From positions 255,581 to 319,580 of the forward strand of contig JANYES010000011.1 of assembly GCA_025362975.1 (NCBI GenBank): a stretch of DNA of 64,000 nucleotides, given 5' to 3'. Shown here in pieces: positions 54,683 to 64,000 of the stretch. The notes beneath the pieces are model-generated. The model was given only the letters and a program-made list of their open reading frames with translations, had not been told where the DNA came from and made no database searches. A program made the position numbers and the translations under genes. How positions within the stretch are numbered: the first letter of the stretch is position 1; every line of letters starts with the position of its first letter. Source of the DNA: Alphaproteobacteria bacterium (lineage in GTDB: Bacteria; Pseudomonadota; Alphaproteobacteria; Rickettsiales; SXRF01).

Positions 54683-56839
54683 ATGGCTAAGGAAAATTCT
54701 TCACCAGCAGGCGATAGGGCAAGCACGCAGACAGCGATAGAGTCCGGTTTGGTCGAGGATAAAAAGGCCAATGCGCCCCTGCTCGCCAAGCTTCGTGACA
54801 CCCTGAAAAACTACAAATCCCCGCACGACACCTGCCAGATCGACTCGATCAAAGACCGTTTCAAGATCGACCTTATGCAGCCGCTGCCCGATTTCGACAT
54901 CACGCAGGCGAAGGCCTATGCCGCCAGCGACACAGTCGAGCCGAGCAAACAGCTGGTCGCGCATGTGTGCGAATGGGGAAAAAGCCAGCGCTATACCGCC
55001 ATCGGGCAGTTGTTCAATTTCGAGCACCGCGCCATCGCCCAGCTCGTGGCAGCCGGGAATATGCGCCTGTCGACCACGCAGGAAGAGCGCTACGTGCTGG
55101 TCTACGAACGCCCGCCGGGCATTCGCTTAGGCGAACTCATCCGCCGCAAAAAACTGCCGGTCAACACCACCTTCATCTACGAACACATCCTGACACCCGT
55201 TGTGGGCGCCATCGCACAGCTCAGCGAGCTTGGCATTTCGCACGGCATGATCAACATCGACACCATCTACATCAGCGACACCGCCGTGCTCGCGCCGTGC
55301 CTGAGCGAACCGTGCGGCCTGTCCCAGCCCTACTGGTACGAGTCCATAGAGCGCATGCAGGCGCTGCCGCACGCCAAAGGCGAAGGCTCCGTTGGGCATG
55401 ATTATTACGCGCTGGCCGTGGTGCTGCTTGAAATCGTCCACGGGCATGAACATTTGTCCACGATTTCGCGCGCCGACCTTGAAATACTGATGCTGCGCCA
55501 AGGCGCATGCAACGCGCTGATGCGCGAAAAGGACGTGCCGGAAGTATTCTACGATTTCTTCCGCGGCGCGCTCACCTTAAGCAACGAAGAGCGTTGGACG
55601 GGAAAACAGGTCGCCTTATGGCTGGGCGGCAAGCGTTTCAACGTATTGCCGCCGCCGGTTCCCGGCGATGCCGTGCGCCCTTACGAATTCGGCGAAAAAC
55701 ACGCCAACACCCGCCGCGAACTCGCGTATCTGTTCTCCTCCGACTGGGAGCACATGATCGCTTCGCTCAACAACAACCAGCTCGCGCACTGGGTCTCGGT
55801 GTCGCTTCGCAACAAAGAGCTTTCCGACATTGTCAGCCGCTTGAGCCGCACCGCCTTCGACTTAAGCGCCAAGAACGAAGGGCAGACCTACGAAGCGCTG
55901 ATGAACATCATTTTACTGCTTGACCCGCAAGGCCCGATACGCATCCGCCAGCTGTCGATGAACATTGACGGTATGGACGGGCTTGCCGTGGAGCTTTACT
56001 CCAAAAAACAAAATCCCGAGCTGCAACTCATCGCCCGCTTCATCGAGCTGAACATGGTGAATTACTGGGTCGAGCTGCAAAACAAAGTCCACAAGGGCGA
56101 GTATCAGGTTTCGACGCTGCTCAACAATCTCAACATGCGCCTCGACCGCCTGCGCGGCTGCATCCGCAATACCGGCATGGGCTTCGGGTTAGAACGCATG
56201 ATGTATGAGCTTAACCCCGAAATGCCCTGCGTCAGCCCGCTCTTTATCAATGCTAATGTGACCTCGCTCGGCCAATTGCTCATCCAGCTTGACCGCCTCG
56301 CCAGCCAGCTCGGCGATGACGACGAAACCATCGACCGCCACATCGCCTCGTTCATCGCCAGTAAACTTTTAATCCTGCACGAAATCCGCCTCGACGAACT
56401 CGCTGGCATCCCCGAACTCGCCACCAATAAAACCATTATGGCGATTTACCTCCTCGGCTCCGCACAGCTCAAGGTCAACCAGCTTCGCGTGCCGGGGCTT
56501 ACCAACTGGCTCGTGCTTCGCACCTTGCCGCTGATGGACTTCATCCACAGCCGCACCCTGCGCCAGAAATATAAAAACGCCCTGCTCGCCGTTGCGCCCA
56601 CGGGCTACATTCCCAAACTCGCCGAACTCGTCGTCAGCGCCGATTATGCCGTCAACGACGAAGTCGGATTCAAGCAAGCGCTCGCCACTTTCCGCAGCAA
56701 TAGGGATTCCATCCGCTACTACGAAGCCGCCCACAACATCGAGGCCGAAAGCCAGACGATGGGCTACAATATCGCCAAGATGGTGGCGTATATCTGCCTG
56801 TGCGGCTCGATTTATTTCCTGACGCGGGGAGGTTTATAA
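54683..56839 (+). CDS. Membrane-anchored pseudokinase-like protein
   Basis: A 718-residue protein. Residues about 75-330 resemble a Ser/Thr kinase fold, but catalytic residues are gone: the beta-3 Lys position reads LVAHV, the catalytic loop is HGMINIDTIYI (about 187-197, lacking the D, K and N), and no DFG is seen. The alpha-F Asp survives in GHDYYALAVVLLEIVHGHEH. A long helical region follows, and a single C-terminal helix (VAYICLCGSIYFLTRGGL) anchors it in the membrane. The next gene, 1 nt away, is a small membrane protein. A scaffold or regulatory role is inferred. Confidence 0.75.
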   Translation: MAKENSSPAGDRASTQTAIESGLVEDKKANAPLLAKLRDTLKNYKSPHDTCQIDSIKDRFKIDLMQPLPDFDITQAKAYAASDTVEPSKQLVAHVCEWGKSQRYTAIGQLFNFEHRAIAQLVAAGNMRLSTTQEERYVLVYERPPGIRLGELIRRKKLPVNTTFIYEHILTPVVGAIAQLSELGISHGMINIDTIYISDTAVLAPCLSEPCGLSQPYWYESIERMQALPHAKGEGSVGHDYYALAVVLLEIVHGHEHLSTISRADLEILMLRQGACNALMREKDVPEVFYDFFRGALTLSNEERWTGKQVALWLGGKRFNVLPPPVPGDAVRPYEFGEKHANTRRELAYLFSSDWEHMIASLNNNQLAHWVSVSLRNKELSDIVSRLSRTAFDLSAKNEGQTYEALMNIILLLDPQGPIRIRQLSMNIDGMDGLAVELYSKKQNPELQLIARFIELNMVNYWVELQNKVHKGEYQVSTLLNNLNMRLDRLRGCIRNTGMGFGLERMMYELNPEMPCVSPLFINANVTSLGQLLIQLDRLASQLGDDDETIDRHIASFIASKLLILHEIRLDELAGIPELATNKTIMAIYLLGSAQLKVNQLRVPGLTNWLVLRTLPLMDFIHSRTLRQKYKNALLAVAPTGYIPKLAELVVSADYAVNDEVGFKQALATFRSNRDSIRYYEAAHNIEAESQTMGYNIAKMVAYICLCGSIYFLTRGGL

Positions 56840-56840
56840 C

Positions 56841-57293
56841 ATGGGTTTAGTCGCGTTCCTCATCATCTGCCTTGTCGGCATCGTCGTGCTTCAGTTCGGC
56901 TTCATCTTCATCATGCTGGCCATGATGCCAGCCATCGTCGCGTGGTACACCGACACCGACCGCAAGCACTCCGTATTCAAAATCATAGGCTGCGGCAATC
57001 TGGCCGCGGGCCTGTCCACTTTCGCGCCCATCGTCCAGTCCGCGTTCCACTCGAAGCGCTTCGATGTCGAAAGCGTCATCACCGACCCGAGCGTGTGGCT
57101 GTTCATCTATCTCGGCGCCGGTTCCGGTTGGGGCATGATTTACCTCTGCCGCTTCATTTCGCGCTTTGTAGTCACCATGACCTACGAATATAACATCAGC
57201 ACGCTCAAGAAACAGCAGCAACGCCTCATCGCCGAATGGGGCCCGGAAATAGCGCTCACCGACGAATCCGAGCAGGACAACATCGAGTACTAA
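56841..57293 (+). CDS. Small membrane protein partnered with the pseudokinase
   Basis: A 150-residue protein with about three membrane helices (FLIICLVGIVVLQFGFIFIM, a segment near NLAAGLSTFAPI, and WLFIYLGAGSGWGMIYL) and a charged C-terminal tail (LKKQQQRLIAEWGPEIALTD). It starts 1 nt after the pseudokinase stop, so the two are certainly co-transcribed and probably interact. No family is recognised. Confidence 0.72.
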   Translation: MGLVAFLIICLVGIVVLQFGFIFIMLAMMPAIVAWYTDTDRKHSVFKIIGCGNLAAGLSTFAPIVQSAFHSKRFDVESVITDPSVWLFIYLGAGSGWGMIYLCRFISRFVVTMTYEYNISTLKKQQQRLIAEWGPEIALTDESEQDNIEY

Positions 57294-57444
57294 TCCCCCG
57301 TAAAATTATTCTGCTGGCACTTTACGCTTTGTTAATCAAAAATAATTAGGTTGTACTTATATTTAATTTTACAGTTTAATGTTGTGCCGCTCCGGGAAAC
57401 TGGATATAACTGGCATAAATATAAGAAAAATGGAGGGAATAACA

Positions 57445-57762
57445 ATGGCTACAACCGTCGATCAAATACAACCCTCGATTGTACTCCCTGCCTGCATGGA
57501 CGTAGTGGCCTGCGGCCCTATCGCTACCACCGTGCTCAAACAGCTCAACAGCCAAACCCGCATCGGCATCGATGCTTCGGCCCTCGAGCGCGTGTCGACG
57601 CCCGGCGTGCAGCTTCTGATGAGCGCCATCAAAACCGCCGAAAACGACGGCAAGCGCCTTGTGGTTCTCTGGGCGTCGCCCGCGCTAATGCAGGCCGTCA
57701 ACGATCTCGGCCTCAGTCAGCATTTCCATCCTTATCTCGATAACAGAAAGGCCATCCAATGA
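57445..57762 (+). CDS. STAS-domain protein (anti-anti-sigma/chemotaxis type)
   Basis: About 105 residues from the ATG at 57445, which has GGAGGG 8 nt upstream. The STAS fold core is clear: QPSIVLPACMDVVACGPIAT, IGIDASALERVSTPGVQLLM (with the conserved Ser/Thr of the phosphorylation loop in VSTPGV) and KRLVVLWASPALMQAVNDLG. Such genes often open alphaproteobacterial chemotaxis operons before cheY and cheA. Its stop overlaps the cheY start (ATGA). Confidence 0.88.
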   Translation: MATTVDQIQPSIVLPACMDVVACGPIATTVLKQLNSQTRIGIDASALERVSTPGVQLLMSAIKTAENDGKRLVVLWASPALMQAVNDLGLSQHFHPYLDNRKAIQ

Positions 57763-58124
57763 AACGCGCACTCGCCGTTGACGATTCAAAAACCATGCGC
57801 GACATGGTGTCTTTCACGCTCAAGGGCGCGGGATTCGAAGTCATCGAAGCCGAAGATGGCAAGGACGCCATCGCCAAGCTCGGCGACAGCAAGGTCGACG
57901 TGGTCATCACAGATCTGAACATGCCCAACATGAACGGCTTCGAACTCATCCGTAACCTCCGCAATCAGGAAAACCACAAATTCACTCCTATCCTCATGCT
58001 CACCACCGAAGGTGACGAAACCAAAAAACAAGAAGGCAAAACCGCGGGTGCCACGGGTTGGATCATCAAGCCCTTCAACCCGGAAAAACTGATTCAAGTC
58101 ATCAACAAAGTCTGCGGAGCTTAA
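57759..58124 (+). CDS. cheY: Chemotaxis response regulator CheY
   Basis: A 121-residue single receiver domain that binds the flagellar motor when phosphorylated by CheA. The acidic pair is in ALAVDDSKTMRD, the phospho-acceptor Asp52 in VVITDLNMPNMNGFE, Thr82 in MLTTEGDE, and Lys104 in IIKPFNPEKL; all five signature residues are intact, unlike the degenerate receiver at 5649. It overlaps the STAS gene by 4 nt and lies 4 nt before cheA. Confidence 0.97.
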   Translation: MKRALAVDDSKTMRDMVSFTLKGAGFEVIEAEDGKDAIAKLGDSKVDVVITDLNMPNMNGFELIRNLRNQENHKFTPILMLTTEGDETKKQEGKTAGATGWIIKPFNPEKLIQVINKVCGA

Positions 58125-58128
58125 AGTT

Positions 58129-60117
58129 ATGCATGATGAGCTGCAACAATTCAAAGCGACCTACATCAACGAGTGCCTTGAGCTGCTCGCGTCAATGGAA
58201 GAGAGCCTGATGCAGCTTGACGAAAACAATGCCAGCTCCGAAGAGCTAAACGCCATTTTCCGCTGCGCGCATTCGATCAAAGGCGGTGCGGGCGCGTTCG
58301 GTTTCACCAGCATCGCCAGCTTTACTCATATTTTAGAAGCCCTGCTCGACCAACTCCGCGAAGGCAAAATCGCCGCGTCGCGCCTTGTCATCGACACGCT
58401 GCTTAAATCCAAAGACATTGTGCTCACGATGGTCATGACTGCGCGCGATGACGGTGAGCTTGCCGCCGGGTACGGCGACGACATCGCCGCTCAGCTCGCC
58501 GAAATCTGCAATATGCCGCAACCCGCCAGCAAAGCTGAAACCGCCAAACCTGCCAGCGGCACCAACACCGGTTACACCATTCATTTCGTGCCGCACCCCG
58601 CTATGATCGCCCACGGCTCCGACCCGCTGCTGCTCTTGCGCGAGCTTCGCCGTTTAGGGATGTGCACCATCAGCACCGACGCCATGCGCATTCCGCTGCT
58701 CGACAGCTTCAACTACGAGCATTCGTATCTGGGCTGGGACATCACCATCATCACCGACAAGCCAAAATCTGCGCTGGAAGAAGTCTTCGAATTCGTCGAC
58801 GGCGAATGCGAACTCACCATCACCAGCGACGCGGTGGAAGAAACCGCCGAGCCTACTCCCGCCGCCATCATCGAGCCCATCGCCCCCACTCAGCAGGGCG
58901 GCAAAGAACCCGCCATACAGGCCACCAACTCCATCCGCGTCGATATCGACAAGGTGGACCGCCTTATCAACATGGTGGGCGAAATCGTCATCATTCAAGC
59001 AATGCTCTCCATGCAGACCCGCGATCTTGCCGCGCAGGAACACATCGAACTCGTCGGCGGCATTACCGAACTAAACACCCACACCCGCGAGCTGCAAGCC
59101 GCCGTCATGGCCATCCGCATGCAGCCGGTGAAGTCCATTTTCTCGCGCATGCCGCGCCTCGTGCGCGATCTTTCCAGCCAGCTTGGCAAAAATATTCGCT
59201 TGGAAATGGAAGGTGAAAACACCGAGGTCGACAAAACCATCATCGAACAACTCTCCGACCCCCTCACCCACATGATCCGCAATTCCATCGACCACGGGTT
59301 GGAAATGCCCGACCAACGCGTCGCCAACGGCAAACTGGCGCAGGGCACCATCCATCTTGCCGCCTCACATCGCGGCGGGCGCATTGTCATCGAAATAACC
59401 GATGACGGCGCGGGCATCAACCGCGAGCGCGTGCTCGCCAAAGCCAAGGAAAAAGGCCTCGTTGCGCAAGACGCGCAGATGACACCCGAAGAAATCGACC
59501 AGCTCATTTTCGCGCCGGGCTTCTCTACCGCCGAAACCGTCACCAGCATTTCGGGGCGCGGTGTCGGAATGGATGTGGTTAAGCGCAACATCGAAGGCAT
59601 TGGTGGCACCGTCACCGTCACCAACACCCCCGGCAAAGGCGCGCACTTCACCACCTCCCTGCCGCTCACGCTTGCCATCCTCGACGGCATGATCGTGCGC
59701 GTGAACACCGAATGCTACATCATCCCCATCGCCAACATTATCGAAACCCTTCGCCCCAAACCCGAAGAAGTGCGCGATATCGCCGATGGTCAATCAGTCA
59801 TCAACGTCCGCGGCAATTTCGTGCCGGTGCTCTATCTGCACCCCCTATTTTCTATTCCCGGCGCTGTGCGCGACGCGAGCAAAGCCCTCGTCGTCCTCGT
59901 TGAAAACGGCCATGAACAAATCGGCCTCGTCGTCGACGAGTTGGTGGGCCAGCAGCAGGTCGTCATTAAAACGCTTGAAGACAATGCCGACCCCGTCGCC
60001 GGTGTGTCGGGCGCCACCATCCTCGGCGACGGCAAAGTCTCGCTCATACTCGATATCGCCGGATTACGCCGCATGAAACACAAGCTTGTGCCCGAAACCG
60101 AATTACAAGCCGCATGA
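58129..60117 (+). CDS. cheA: Chemotaxis histidine kinase CheA
   Basis: The receptor-coupled kinase that phosphorylates CheY. It has 662 residues: the P1 Hpt domain with phospho-acceptor His48 in RCAHSIKGGAGAFGF; a P2-like CheY-binding region (about 145-245); P3 dimerisation helices (QATNSIRVDIDKVDRLINMV); the P4 ATPase (HMIRNSIDHGLEMPDQRV, DDGAGINRERV, GFSTAETVTSISGRGVGMDV); and the P5 CheW-like domain (LPLTLAILDGMIVRVNTECY). All domains are intact. Confidence 0.98.
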   Translation: MHDELQQFKATYINECLELLASMEESLMQLDENNASSEELNAIFRCAHSIKGGAGAFGFTSIASFTHILEALLDQLREGKIAASRLVIDTLLKSKDIVLTMVMTARDDGELAAGYGDDIAAQLAEICNMPQPASKAETAKPASGTNTGYTIHFVPHPAMIAHGSDPLLLLRELRRLGMCTISTDAMRIPLLDSFNYEHSYLGWDITIITDKPKSALEEVFEFVDGECELTITSDAVEETAEPTPAAIIEPIAPTQQGGKEPAIQATNSIRVDIDKVDRLINMVGEIVIIQAMLSMQTRDLAAQEHIELVGGITELNTHTRELQAAVMAIRMQPVKSIFSRMPRLVRDLSSQLGKNIRLEMEGENTEVDKTIIEQLSDPLTHMIRNSIDHGLEMPDQRVANGKLAQGTIHLAASHRGGRIVIEITDDGAGINRERVLAKAKEKGLVAQDAQMTPEEIDQLIFAPGFSTAETVTSISGRGVGMDVVKRNIEGIGGTVTVTNTPGKGAHFTTSLPLTLAILDGMIVRVNTECYIIPIANIIETLRPKPEEVRDIADGQSVINVRGNFVPVLYLHPLFSIPGAVRDASKALVVLVENGHEQIGLVVDELVGQQQVVIKTLEDNADPVAGVSGATILGDGKVSLILDIAGLRRMKHKLVPETELQAA

Positions 60118-60130
60118 GAAAGGAACCCAC

Positions 60131-60619
60131 ATGAGCACCGCCACCGCACTACCTCTGAGCAGCGTATCGACCATGCAATTTCTCACCTTCACCGTAGGCA
60201 AGGAAGAGTTCGGCGTCGATATCATGATGGTTCGCGAAGTCAAAGGCTGGTCCGAAACCACGCACCTTCCCAACACGCCGGAATACCTCCGTGGGGTACT
60301 TAACCTGCGCGGCATCATCATTCCCATCTTCGATTTACGCGCCCGCTTCGGCGGCGGCCTGACCGATGCCAATGAAAAGAACGTCGTGGTCATCATCGCC
60401 GTCGGCAACCGCACTTTAGGCATTCTTGTCGACACCGTGTCTGACATCCTGACGGTGGGCGGTTCCGACATCAAGCCGTCGCCCGAAACCAGCATCGGCA
60501 TTAATGAAAAATTCGTCTCCGGCCTCATCGCCGTCGAAGGCCGCATGGTGGTTCTGCTCGACATCGAAGTGCTGCTTTCCGGCGACGTCCAGCTCATCAA
60601 TGACAACGTAAAGGCTTGA
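60131..60619 (+). CDS. cheW: Chemotaxis coupling protein CheW
   Basis: Links chemoreceptors to CheA. It has about 162 residues from the ATG at 60131 (MSTATALPLSSVSTMQFLTF), preceded by AAGGA. Two SH3-like halves are recognisable: FTVGKEEFGVDIMMVREVKG and LPNTPEYLRGVLNLRGIIIP with IFDLRARFGGGL, then LGILVDTVSDILTVGGSDIK and FVSGLIAVEGRMVVLLDIEV. It follows cheA by 13 nt. Confidence 0.97.
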   Translation: MSTATALPLSSVSTMQFLTFTVGKEEFGVDIMMVREVKGWSETTHLPNTPEYLRGVLNLRGIIIPIFDLRARFGGGLTDANEKNVVVIIAVGNRTLGILVDTVSDILTVGGSDIKPSPETSIGINEKFVSGLIAVEGRMVVLLDIEVLLSGDVQLINDNVKA

Positions 60620-60673
60620 TCCATGCAGCTCACCGCCTATACTCCCAGCATCGCCCCACCACCCGGAGACGCC

Positions 60674-61423
60674 ATGCTCGCCCGCCATATCCTGCTGCTA
60701 TCCACCCTGCTATTGCCCGGCATCGCGCACGCCCAGCCGCAGAAACCCGTCATCTGGGGCTATCAGGGCGGCGGCAACGACGATGAAGGCTGGGGCACGC
60801 TCTCGCACGACTTCATCACCTGCGACACCGGCAACAACCAATCCCCCGTCGCCATCAACGAGCCTAAACAATCCGCCATGCCCCCGCTCGACGTGCATTA
60901 TCACAGCGCCACCATGAGCATGGAGCGCAAGGACCGCACTATCGTCATCACCATGACCGGCGCGGGCTATCTCGAAGACAGCGGCAAACGCTACAAGCTC
61001 ATCGAAATGCGCATGCATTCGCCCGCCGAGCACGAAGTTGTCGGCGAAGTCAAACCCGCCGAAATCCACCTCATCCATAAAAGCGCCGACGGCAAGATCC
61101 TCATCCTCGGCATTTTCGCCGACATCCGCGCCAAGGAAAACCCGGCCCTGCAACTCATTCTCGATAAAGCCCCCGCCAAAACCGGCATCAAACCGCTCGT
61201 CACTTTCAACCCCGCCGATCTTCTCCCCGAGTCTAAAGGCTACTACGCCTATACCGGCTCGCTCAGCTGGCCGCCCTGCACCGAAGGCGTCGAATGGCGC
61301 GTGATGAAAGACGACATGGCCATCACGCAGGGCCAAATGAAAGCAATCGGAAAACTGCTCGGCCGCAACGCGCGGCTGCTGCAACCGCTCTACCTTCGCC
61401 CCGTCAAACAAACATTGAATTAA
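60674..61423 (+). CDS. Alpha-carbonic-anhydrase-like exported protein lacking one zinc ligand
   Basis: About 249 residues from the ATG at 60674 (GGAG 6-7 nt upstream) with signal peptide MLARHILLLSTLLLPGIAHA. The alpha-CA fold is clear (NNQSPVAINEP; LIEMRMHSPAEHEVVGEVKP; AEIHLIHKSADG; TGSLSWPPCTEGVEW). The metal site is not canonical: family F-H-F-H-x-P-S-E-H reads MRMHSPAEH, so the first zinc His is Arg113; His115 and His132 remain. The SLTTPP gatekeeper reads SLSWPP. CO2 hydration is therefore doubtful, and it may be a carbonic-anhydrase-related protein. It sits between cheW and a chemoreceptor gene. Confidence 0.85.
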   Translation: MLARHILLLSTLLLPGIAHAQPQKPVIWGYQGGGNDDEGWGTLSHDFITCDTGNNQSPVAINEPKQSAMPPLDVHYHSATMSMERKDRTIVITMTGAGYLEDSGKRYKLIEMRMHSPAEHEVVGEVKPAEIHLIHKSADGKILILGIFADIRAKENPALQLILDKAPAKTGIKPLVTFNPADLLPESKGYYAYTGSLSWPPCTEGVEWRVMKDDMAITQGQMKAIGKLLGRNARLLQPLYLRPVKQTLN

Positions 61424-61537: not shown

Positions 61538-64000
61538 ATGAAGTCTTTTTTCCGCAGCGGCGATTCCCAATGCCTGAGCATGCTCAACAATCTGTCCATG
61601 CCGGTGCTGGTCGCGGATAGGGATTTTACCATCACGTTTGCCAACAAAGCGTCGCTGGATGTACTCAACACGCTGTCGCCCTACCTACCCGTGCCGGTGG
61701 ATAAAATCGTCGGCTCCAACCTCGACGTGCTCAACAAGCGCAGTTTCGCCGACGGCAAAACCTCGCATATCGAGTTCAAGCTCGGCAACCAGTGGCTTTC
61801 CATGAGCGCTACCATGCTGCGCGACAAACGCGGCGAATTCAATGGTGCTTTCATCAACTGGGCCGTCATCACCCAGGCCAAATACGATAGCCTGAATTTC
61901 AACGGCCAGTTGGCCGCCATTTCCAAAACCCAAGCCGTTATTGAATTCAACATGGACGGCACCATCATCAACGCCAACGAAAATTTCCTTGCCGCGCTGG
62001 ACTACACGCTCGACGAAATTAAAGGCAAGCATCACGCCATCTTCCTCGACCCCAGCTACCGTTCCAGCCCGGAATACGCGCAGTTCTGGGAGTCGCTCAA
62101 CCGCGGCCAGTATCAACAAACTGAATACAAGCGCTTCGGCAAAAACAACAAAGAGGTCTGGATTCTGGCCTCCTACAACCCCATACTCGACGACGAAGGC
62201 AAGCCTTTCAAAGTCGTCAAATACGCCACCGACATCAGCAAACAAAAACTGCAAGTCGCCGATTTTTCCGGCCAGATTAAAGCCATCGGCAAGGCGCAGG
62301 CCGTCATCGAATTCAACATGGACGGCACCATCATCAACGCCAACCTCAACTTCCTGCACACACTGGGTTACACGCTCGATGAAATCAAGGGCCGTCACCA
62401 CTCGATTTTCGTCGACCCTTCCTATCGCTCCAGCCCTGAATACACGCAGTTCTGGGATACGCTGGCTCGCGGACAGTATCAGCAAGCCGAGTATAAACGC
62501 TTCGGTAAGGGCGGCAAGGAAGTGTGGATTCAGGCGTCATATAACCCGATTCTCGATTTAAACGGAAAGCCGTTCAAGGTTGTCAAATACGCGACCGACA
62601 TCACCAAACAGAAGCTGCAATCCGCCGACTTCTCCGGCCAGATCGACGCCATCGGTAAATCCCAAGCCGTCATCGAATTCAACATGGACGGAACCATCGC
62701 CAACGCCAACCCGAATTTCTTGGGCGCCGTGGGTTACAACCTCGATGAAATCAAAGGCAAGCACCATTCTATGTTTGTCGAACCGGCTTATAAAAATAGC
62801 ACCGAATATAAGCAATTCTGGGACACGCTCAATCGCGGCGAATTCCAGCAGGCCGAGTACAAACGCATGGGCAAGGGCGGTAAGGAAATCTGGATTCAGG
62901 CCTCCTACAACCCGATCATGGACATGAACGGCAAGCCATTCAAAGTCGTCAAATACGCCACCGACGTCACGCAGATGGTCACCAACCGCACCGAAAACGA
63001 AATGGGCATGAACGAAGCCGTCAGCGTACTCACGGGCCTCTCCGAAGGCAACCTCACCCGCCAGATGGATAAGGAATACAAAGGCACTTTCAGCCAGATC
63101 AAAGGCGCGTTGAATGCCACCATCGAACGCCTGAAAGACACCGTTCTGCGCATCAAGGAATCGGCCGAGTCGGTCAATTCCGCTTCCAGCGAAATCTCCG
63201 CCGGCAGCACCAATCTGTCACAGCGCACCGAGGAACAAGCCTCGTCGCTAGAAGAAACCGCCGCCTCAATGGAACAGCTCACCGGCACCGTGCGCCAGAA
63301 CTCCGAAAACGCGCGTAACGCCAACTCGCTTTCGTCCGAAGCCCAGAATGTCGCCGAGCGCGGCGGCCAGGTGGTCGGCGAAGCGGTGAACGCCATGAAT
63401 AGCATCGAAAAATCCTCGAAGAAAATTTCCGACATCATCAGCGTGATCGACGAAATCGCCTTCCATACCAACCTGCTCGCCCTCAACGCCGCCGTGGAAG
63501 CGGCGCGCGCCGGTGATGCTGGTAAAGGTTTCGCGGTGGTCGCTTCCGAAGTTCGCTCGCTCGCGGGCCGTTCGGCGACAGCTTCCAAGGAGATCAAAGC
63601 CCTCATCATGGAAAGTTCCTCGCAGGTCAAAACCGGCGCGGAACTCGTCAATCAAGCGGGTTCGACCCTTAAGGACATCGTCGGCTCCGTTAAAAAAGTC
63701 GCCCAGATCATCTCCGAAATCGCCAATGCCAGCGCCGAACAATCCACAGGCATCGACGAAATCAACACCGCCGTGTCGCAGATGGATGAAATGACCCAGC
63801 AAAACGCCGCGCTCGTGGAACAAAACACCGCCGCCGCGCAGTCGCTTGTGCAACAGGCGCAGTCGCTGGGCAACATGGTGTCCTTCTTTAAAGTTGACGA
63901 GCGCGACACCGCCCCTTCGGCGCACCACGCGTTCGAGCCGGTCATTGTGAAACCATCCGCCAAGCCGCGCCCCGTTGCCAAGCCGCGCACGCCGCCACCG
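61538..64000 (+). CDS. Cytosolic methyl-accepting chemoreceptor with repeated PAS domains, 3' end beyond window
   Basis: At least 821 codons, open at the right edge, with a perfect AAGGAGG before the ATG. There is no membrane helix, so the receptor is soluble. A first divergent PAS (about 10-110) is followed by three near-identical PAS domains with a 366-nt (122-residue) period, starting about 61898, 62264 and 62630 and each containing [12 protein letters not shown] and [13 protein letters not shown]-like segment follows ([20 protein letters not shown]), then the MCP signalling hairpin with tip [20 protein letters not shown], which binds CheA and CheW. A Pro/Ala/Lys-rich tail continues past the window. 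PAS domains of this type often hold heme or FAD; the cofactor is unknown. Confidence 0.92.

Follow-up and report, generated by a model that had tools for sequence, protein, structure and literature searches.

A probable carbonic anhydrase pseudoenzyme encoded in a chemotaxis operon of a Rickettsiales family

The 64,000-nucleotide stretch of contig JANYES010000011.1 analysed here (the window) carries a chemotaxis operon in which a gene for an α-carbonic anhydrase (α-CA)-like protein lies between cheW and a receptor gene. This protein is referred to below as a carbonic anhydrase-related protein (CARP). The genes of the locus are as follows:

54683..56839, forward strand: 718-aa protein, weakly kinase-like (PF00069 E 0.0076, below the cut-off; PDB kinase chains, E 0.0024 at best)
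56841..57293, forward strand: 150-aa membrane protein by hydropathy, a recurrent CARP neighbour by synteny
57379..57762, forward strand: STAS-domain protein (PF13466, 9.5e-11)
57759..58124, forward strand: cheY, a single receiver domain (PF00072, 9.5e-30)
58129..60117, forward strand: cheA (Hpt, dimerisation, HATPase and CheW domains)
60131..60619, forward strand: cheW, directly upstream of the CARP gene (PF01584, 1.9e-37)
60674..61423, forward strand: probable exported α-CA-related pseudoenzyme (CARP), 249 aa, with R113 (codon 61010-61012) and S198/W199
61538..64000, forward strand, running off the window: receptor gene (PAS-PAS-PAS-MCP), no transmembrane segment found

Past the receptor, and on the same strand, lie cheR, cheD and cheB, then genes for a short MCP-domain protein, a STAS protein (read by eye), an RsbW-like ATPase and a receiver-SpoIIE phosphatase (locus L104, with domains named on the orthologues of genome G002, record JANYBV010000028.1; the window genome is G000). 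A module of short soluble MCP, STAS, RsbW-like ATPase and receiver-SpoIIE genes was observed at L104 3180-6488, L018 457-3870 and L024 9908-12020 (the last without receiver-SpoIIE), adjoining or inside a che cluster, a hybrid of chemosensory and partner-switching parts. A terminal ELF is common to the short MCP proteins of G000, G002 and G006. In the 718-aa protein the HRD-like stretch reads HGMIN and the usual catalytic Asp is missing, so that it is perhaps a pseudokinase. Nothing in the window matched Rfam at the gathering threshold. Between 57200 and 61700 there were three promoter-like sites (2.2 expected), one of them (60616-60643) just before the CARP gene, and 12 terminator-like sites (6.7 expected, sd 2.8), all but one on the minus strand.

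The CARP gene encodes 249 aa plus a stop and has no internal stops; an alternative in-frame ATG at 60623 would give a longer reading frame, and GGAGA lies a few bases 5' of the start at 60674. The product matched PF00194 over residues 45-233 (E 1.4e-27; 97.4 bits against the curated cut-off of 27), was matched by no NCBIfam model, and aligned over nearly its full length with its closest solved structure, 4c3t (E 1.2e-44). It was the sole PF00194 match in the 3.26 Mb window genome. A structure model built from two sequences had a mean pLDDT of 52.5. A signal peptide was read by eye at the N-terminus (MLARHILLLSTLLLPGIAHA, with Q as the next residue), in agreement with the proposed export of the protein in a previous sequence-only reading of this DNA; it was not flagged by a coarse scan of hydropathy over 19 residues at a threshold of 1.6.

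In human CA II numbering, used hereafter, the zinc ligand His94 corresponds to Arg113 of the window protein (codon CGC, 61010-61012), Thr199 to Ser198, Thr200 to Trp199, Q92 to E111, F95 to M114 and H64 to Arg; H96 (H115), E106 (E119) and H119 (H132) are retained. An active α-CA has His94, His96 and His119 along with Thr199 and Thr200, and the window protein has Arg, His and His along with Ser198 and Trp199. With an α-CA fold and at least one zinc histidine missing, it falls among the CARPs. The replaced zinc histidine and the Ser/Trp pair had both been noted in the sequence-only reading, whose expected motif of the F-H-F-H type was also right in substance, Phe95 being present in 37/37 three-histidine sequences. 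That reading had asked for a check of the CGC codon; a sequencing error was ruled out because both other genomes of the genus (G001 and G002) also have CGC and all 11 orthologues in the family lack His94. The three genus genomes share Arg94 and an SLSWPPC loop, with an E92/R94 pair in G000 and G002 and Q92/R94 in G001. Among the family orthologues position 94 was R, E, I, T or A (Arg, Ile, Thr or Ala in 6/10 copies), and Arg was confined to the genus, which rules out a family-wide anion-binding arginine. His96 and Trp209 were invariant in the family, His119 was kept in 8/10 copies and replaced by Gln in 2/10, Thr199/Thr200 were altered in most copies and E106 in 4/10.

A family-profile search of the order (E 1e-10) matched 49 of 343 genomes. 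The Rickettsia 120-kDa antigen family occurred in 6 of 88 genomes sampled from this order, all six in family f12, and in 0 of 14 controls, which points to Rickettsiales. Eleven of the 16 genomes of the window family had a match, all without His94; ten copies were full-length and that of G009 ended at a contig edge just after position 94. His94 was also missing from the single match in family f6 (G020) and from 26/26 readable copies of f15, a third family with matches in 28 genomes (G256 was not fetched, and G260 was split and unreadable at position 94). Over these three groups the residue at position 94 was R, E, I, T, A, V, S, K, Y, L or Q, and His119 was replaced by Gln in G020 and in all 26 readable copies of f15, as in the two family copies, three f15 copies also having Arg at His96. 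In the other nine matching genomes of the order, ten copies kept the three zinc histidines and one further copy (G039b) had lost His96. In a class (alphaproteobacterial) sample, 31 of 385 genomes matched and 34 further copies were read, six of which lacked His94 (G577, G567, G614, G505, G576 and G476), a count that may be favoured by a profile built from His94-less copies; two more lacked another ligand (G464, without His119, and G567b). A phylum sample searched with PF00194 gave matches in 62 of 398 genomes (G971, with the same match coordinates as G828, and G000, G006, G379 and G584 were not fetched), and of 65 sequences read from 64 loci, 58 had three histidines, two were too partial and five of the 63 readable had His94 replaced by N, E, K, Q or R (G800, G1019, G997, G884 and G731b). 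A scan of viral contigs for further relatives confirmed none.

In a quick tree of 75 rows with the ligand columns removed (the 11 omitted rows being the partial G009 and G260 and nine f15 copies), the ten full-length family copies formed one group (support 98) and 17 f15 copies another (support 100), and the state at position 94 changed at least seven times. A single clade for all 34 His94-replaced bacterial rows was rejected (AU p 1.4e-26); clades of the family with G020, and of these with f15, were not rejected and scored slightly above the free tree. By this comparison of sequences, loss of His94 in bacterial α-CA proteins arose more than once.

Between G000 and G002 the CARP gene had a pN of 0.25 and a pS of 0.81 (dS was saturated), a clear sign of purifying selection, and internal stops were absent from 11/11 family copies; the gene has been retained under selection despite loss of the site, and a decaying pseudogene is ruled out. 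The protein changed at the pace of its 718-aa and 150-aa neighbours (identity 0.64, 0.63 and 0.63, respectively) and was less constrained than CheW (0.88) and CheA (0.78), with dN/dS values of 0.069 for cheW, 0.095 for cheA and 0.029 for purA. Sixteen columns that we take to form the pocket, chosen by reference to the CA II structure, had a mean pairwise identity of 0.433 in the ten family copies versus 0.397 elsewhere (P 0.32), and of 0.867 versus 0.383 (P < 0.0001) in 36 intact-ligand proteins, a group selected by three of these 16 columns, which inflates its pocket identity somewhat. At Q92, V121, V143, T199 and T200, which were not selection columns, the values were 0.94 to 1.00 in the intact-ligand group versus 0.09 to 0.36 in the family. 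In the f15 copies the pocket columns had an identity of 0.546 versus 0.570 elsewhere. Outside the pocket, R231 was present in 10/10 family copies and Y240 and L143 each in 9/10, all three in 0/37 intact-ligand proteins, and L235 in 9/10 at a position where 34/37 intact-ligand proteins have Pro; R231 and Y240 were missing from the f6 copy G020.

Because the gene is under purifying selection, yet conservation of the pocket is at background in the family and high in intact-ligand relatives, we regard the window protein as a probable pseudoenzyme that corresponds in bacteria to the CARPs of eukaryotes. Its enzyme function is very probably gone, given the Arg in place of a zinc ligand, the altered Thr199/Thr200 pair, the drifting pocket and the β-CA family match in 15 of the 16 family genomes, that of the window included, by which CA activity is probably covered. 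We infer that zinc would not be bound and that activity would be absent, in keeping with the non-catalytic protein proposed previously. The β-CA matches of the window genome (G000:C20:90431-91423) are three pieces in a 408-aa frame, perhaps a tandem two-domain β-CA, and those of G002 are two pieces in a 411-aa frame.

The CARPs described to date come from animals, from viruses and from one protist (PMC5437132 and PMC2873310, in excerpt). CARP VIII, X and XI keep the α-CA fold, have lost at least one zinc histidine and reuse the fold for protein binding, and the window protein likewise combines the fold with ligand loss (excerpts of PMC7215520, PMC2873310 and PMC13253706). CARP VIII, according to excerpts of PMC7215520 and PMC13253706, carries Arg in place of His94, retains the fold and acts on the IP3 receptor, and its activity was reportedly restored when His was put back (PMC7215520). 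In its Glu114-Val115-Arg116 stretch, as given in excerpt, Arg116 is position 94 and Glu is 92 by offset, matching the E111/R113 pair of the window protein. In contrast to the vertebrate CARPs, which are animal proteins, the window protein is bacterial, carries a signal peptide and has also exchanged Thr199/Thr200 for Ser/Trp. The acatalytic TgCA_RP of Toxoplasma has lost the first and the third of its zinc histidines, with Gln in place of the third, as have the bacterial f15 copies, but is close to the Plasmodium eta class, GPI-anchored and linked to a rhoptry role (PMC5437132, in excerpt). Bacterial α-CAs such as 4c3t belong to the same family and share cysteines C50 and C202 with the window protein, but keep H94/H96/H119, Q92, T199 and T200, a set that the window protein does not keep.

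The genes flanking the relatives were called with a simple longest-ORF script and compared by phmmer with 20 query proteins, so that small genes can be missed. The CARP gene was directly beside a same-strand chemosensory or partner-switching gene in eight of the 11 loci with a readable flank. It is immediately preceded by cheW in G000, G001, G002 and also in G020 of family f6, and in G004, G005, G006 and G010 it immediately precedes a short MCP-domain protein followed by an RsbW-like gene; a STAS gene separates these two in G005, G006 and G010 (none was seen in G004), and the loci of G004 and G005 also have a receiver-SpoIIE gene. The placement in a chemotaxis operon that had been read from the window alone thus recurs in relatives as a chemosensory/partner-switching link. 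No such gene was found next door at the loci of G007, G011 and G013, and that of G009 ends at a contig edge. The 718-aa and 150-aa genes were near or adjoined the CARP gene in G000, G002, G004, G005, G007 and G009, and the 718-aa gene alone in G011.

No che, MCP, STAS or RsbW gene was adjacent at 27 f15 loci or at 10 intact-ligand copies of the order, several of them on short contigs; three f15 loci had a receiver-domain protein three to seven genes away. None directly adjoined the 11 His94-replaced copies of other orders, one of which (G800) had a receiver-domain protein two genes away, and these copies rule out a che link as a general trait of dead α-CAs. Outside the order, the flanks compared were those of these 11 copies and of G464, which lacks His119. 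By eye, the His94-replaced gene of G884 (L238 6314-9860) lies one gene from motA/motB lookalikes, and those of G1019 and G997, of one family (L236 and L237), are followed by a lipoprotein-like gene and a putative sodium symporter. Also by eye, the f15 α-CA-like proteins with His94 replaced and Gln at His119 look like lipoproteins (Cys after a hydrophobic stretch), and several of their genes (at loci such as L076 8974-9669 and L078 3209-3898) precede a UvrD-like helicase gene.

Chemotaxis genes are known in basal Rickettsiales (PMC9352585 and PMC10847448, in excerpt), the main texts of both papers being free of the word 'carbonic'. CheA frames in the family were of two sizes, about 670 and about 920 aa, and no chemotaxis-type CheA was found in five of the 11 CARP-bearing genomes: G004, G007, G009 and G010 had only the long CheA (G007 and G009 judged by length alone), and that of G005, a fragment at the end of a contig, had the gene surroundings of the long CheA of G004 and G010. 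A chemotaxis operon is therefore not required for CARP. In G006, G011 and G013 the chemotaxis cluster lies elsewhere, with cheW directly before the receptor gene and no CARP between them, and G015 has a chemotaxis cluster and no CARP. A simple hydropathy scan found no transmembrane segment in the window receptor or in seven to eight short MCP-domain proteins, and direct contact between the exported CARP and the window receptor is therefore unlikely. The clustered receptors of G002, G006 and G015 had two transmembrane segments and the G013 one had none; membrane segments are likely in three further receptors of the window genome.

The fold and the new surface residues persist, and the CARP is most likely used to bind a protein or a ligand in the periplasm. 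A protein that is still an enzyme, holding zinc through two histidines and another residue or using another metal or substrate, is very improbable: His96 is invariant, His119 persists in 8/10 copies and human CA II with Asn replacing His94 had reduced activity left (PMC5437132, in excerpt), but Arg, Ile, Thr and Ala, found at position 94 in 6/10 copies, are none of them likely zinc ligands, and the changes at Thr199/Thr200 and E106 and the lost pocket constraint point the same way. The sequence-only reading had suggested a possible bicarbonate or pH sensor or binding protein. In a sensor of bicarbonate, CO2 or pH, the old active site with Arg113 would bind an anion or respond to pH and signal to the receptor; the signal peptide and the adjoining receptor gene suit this, and the shared Arg94 and SLSWPPC loop make it possible for the genus. 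It is nevertheless unlikely, since other family genomes have E, I, T or A at position 94, conservation of the pocket columns does not exceed that of the remaining protein, the adjacent receptor has no membrane segment in the hydropathy scan, and abstracts of the open-access literature yielded no bacterial carbonic anhydrase chemoreceptor. The interpretation given earlier was thus supported for a non-catalytic, exported protein encoded in a chemotaxis operon, but not for sensing through the old active site.

We put at roughly 0.5 the probability that the window protein is an exported bacterial CARP kept for binding, most likely as a periplasmic partner or accessory of a chemosensory/partner-switching system; of all single roles it is the one that the recurring neighbours favour most, with about equal chances for and against. 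The α-CA-fold protein would be exported, would no longer build the zinc site or hydrate CO2, and would owe its retention in one Rickettsiales family to selection for binding, most likely in the periplasm as a partner of the system of STAS, CheYAW, receptors, the RsbW-like kinase and the receiver-SpoIIE phosphatase, or as an accessory that presents a ligand to it. Speculatively, it might contact a transmembrane receptor or other membrane protein through a C-terminal region with R231, L235 and Y240. The periplasmic location and functional coupling that we infer have to be set against the three of 11 loci with no chemosensory neighbour, the five of 11 genomes with no chemotaxis-type CheA found, the CARP-free G015, the window receptor and short MCP-domain proteins with no transmembrane segment in the scan, a pace of change of the CARP that matches the 718-aa and 150-aa neighbours and not CheW or CheA, the low pLDDT of the structure model and the missing R231 and Y240 in G020. 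That the CARP was recruited as an envelope regulatory subunit of this system, apart from CARP VIII (an IP3 receptor modulator), with two species having the same two active-site changes, is put forward more tentatively. A non-catalytic envelope protein with a structural or binding role, for example toward glycans or a periplasmic protein, and with no signalling tie, its adjacency being accidental in one lineage, is a somewhat less likely alternative. The lipoprotein-like f15 copies beside unrelated genes such as that of the UvrD-like helicase speak for it, as do the 11 His94-replaced loci of other orders and the upstream 718-aa gene, which accompanies the CARP gene about as regularly as the che genes do; against it, the adjacency recurs as cheW-CARP-MCP, cheW-CARP-RsbW and CARP-short MCP across two families, and occurs in 0/10 intact-ligand copies of the order.

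At the level of abstracts, the open-access literature yielded no report of a bacterial CARP, nor any that links a carbonic anhydrase to chemoreceptors or to chemotaxis in Rickettsiales, and to our knowledge carbonic anhydrase pseudoenzymes have been treated as a eukaryotic and viral matter. α-CA proteins without His94 occur in bacteria beyond the window family too, in 6/34 class and 5/63 phylum copies. In the Rickettsiales, an order in which the origin of host association is debated, one lineage appears to have tied its CARP copy to chemosensory and partner-switching genes. Such a lineage would let one follow, as a natural experiment, the passage of a dead enzyme into signalling, a role in which animals likewise keep dead carbonic anhydrases.
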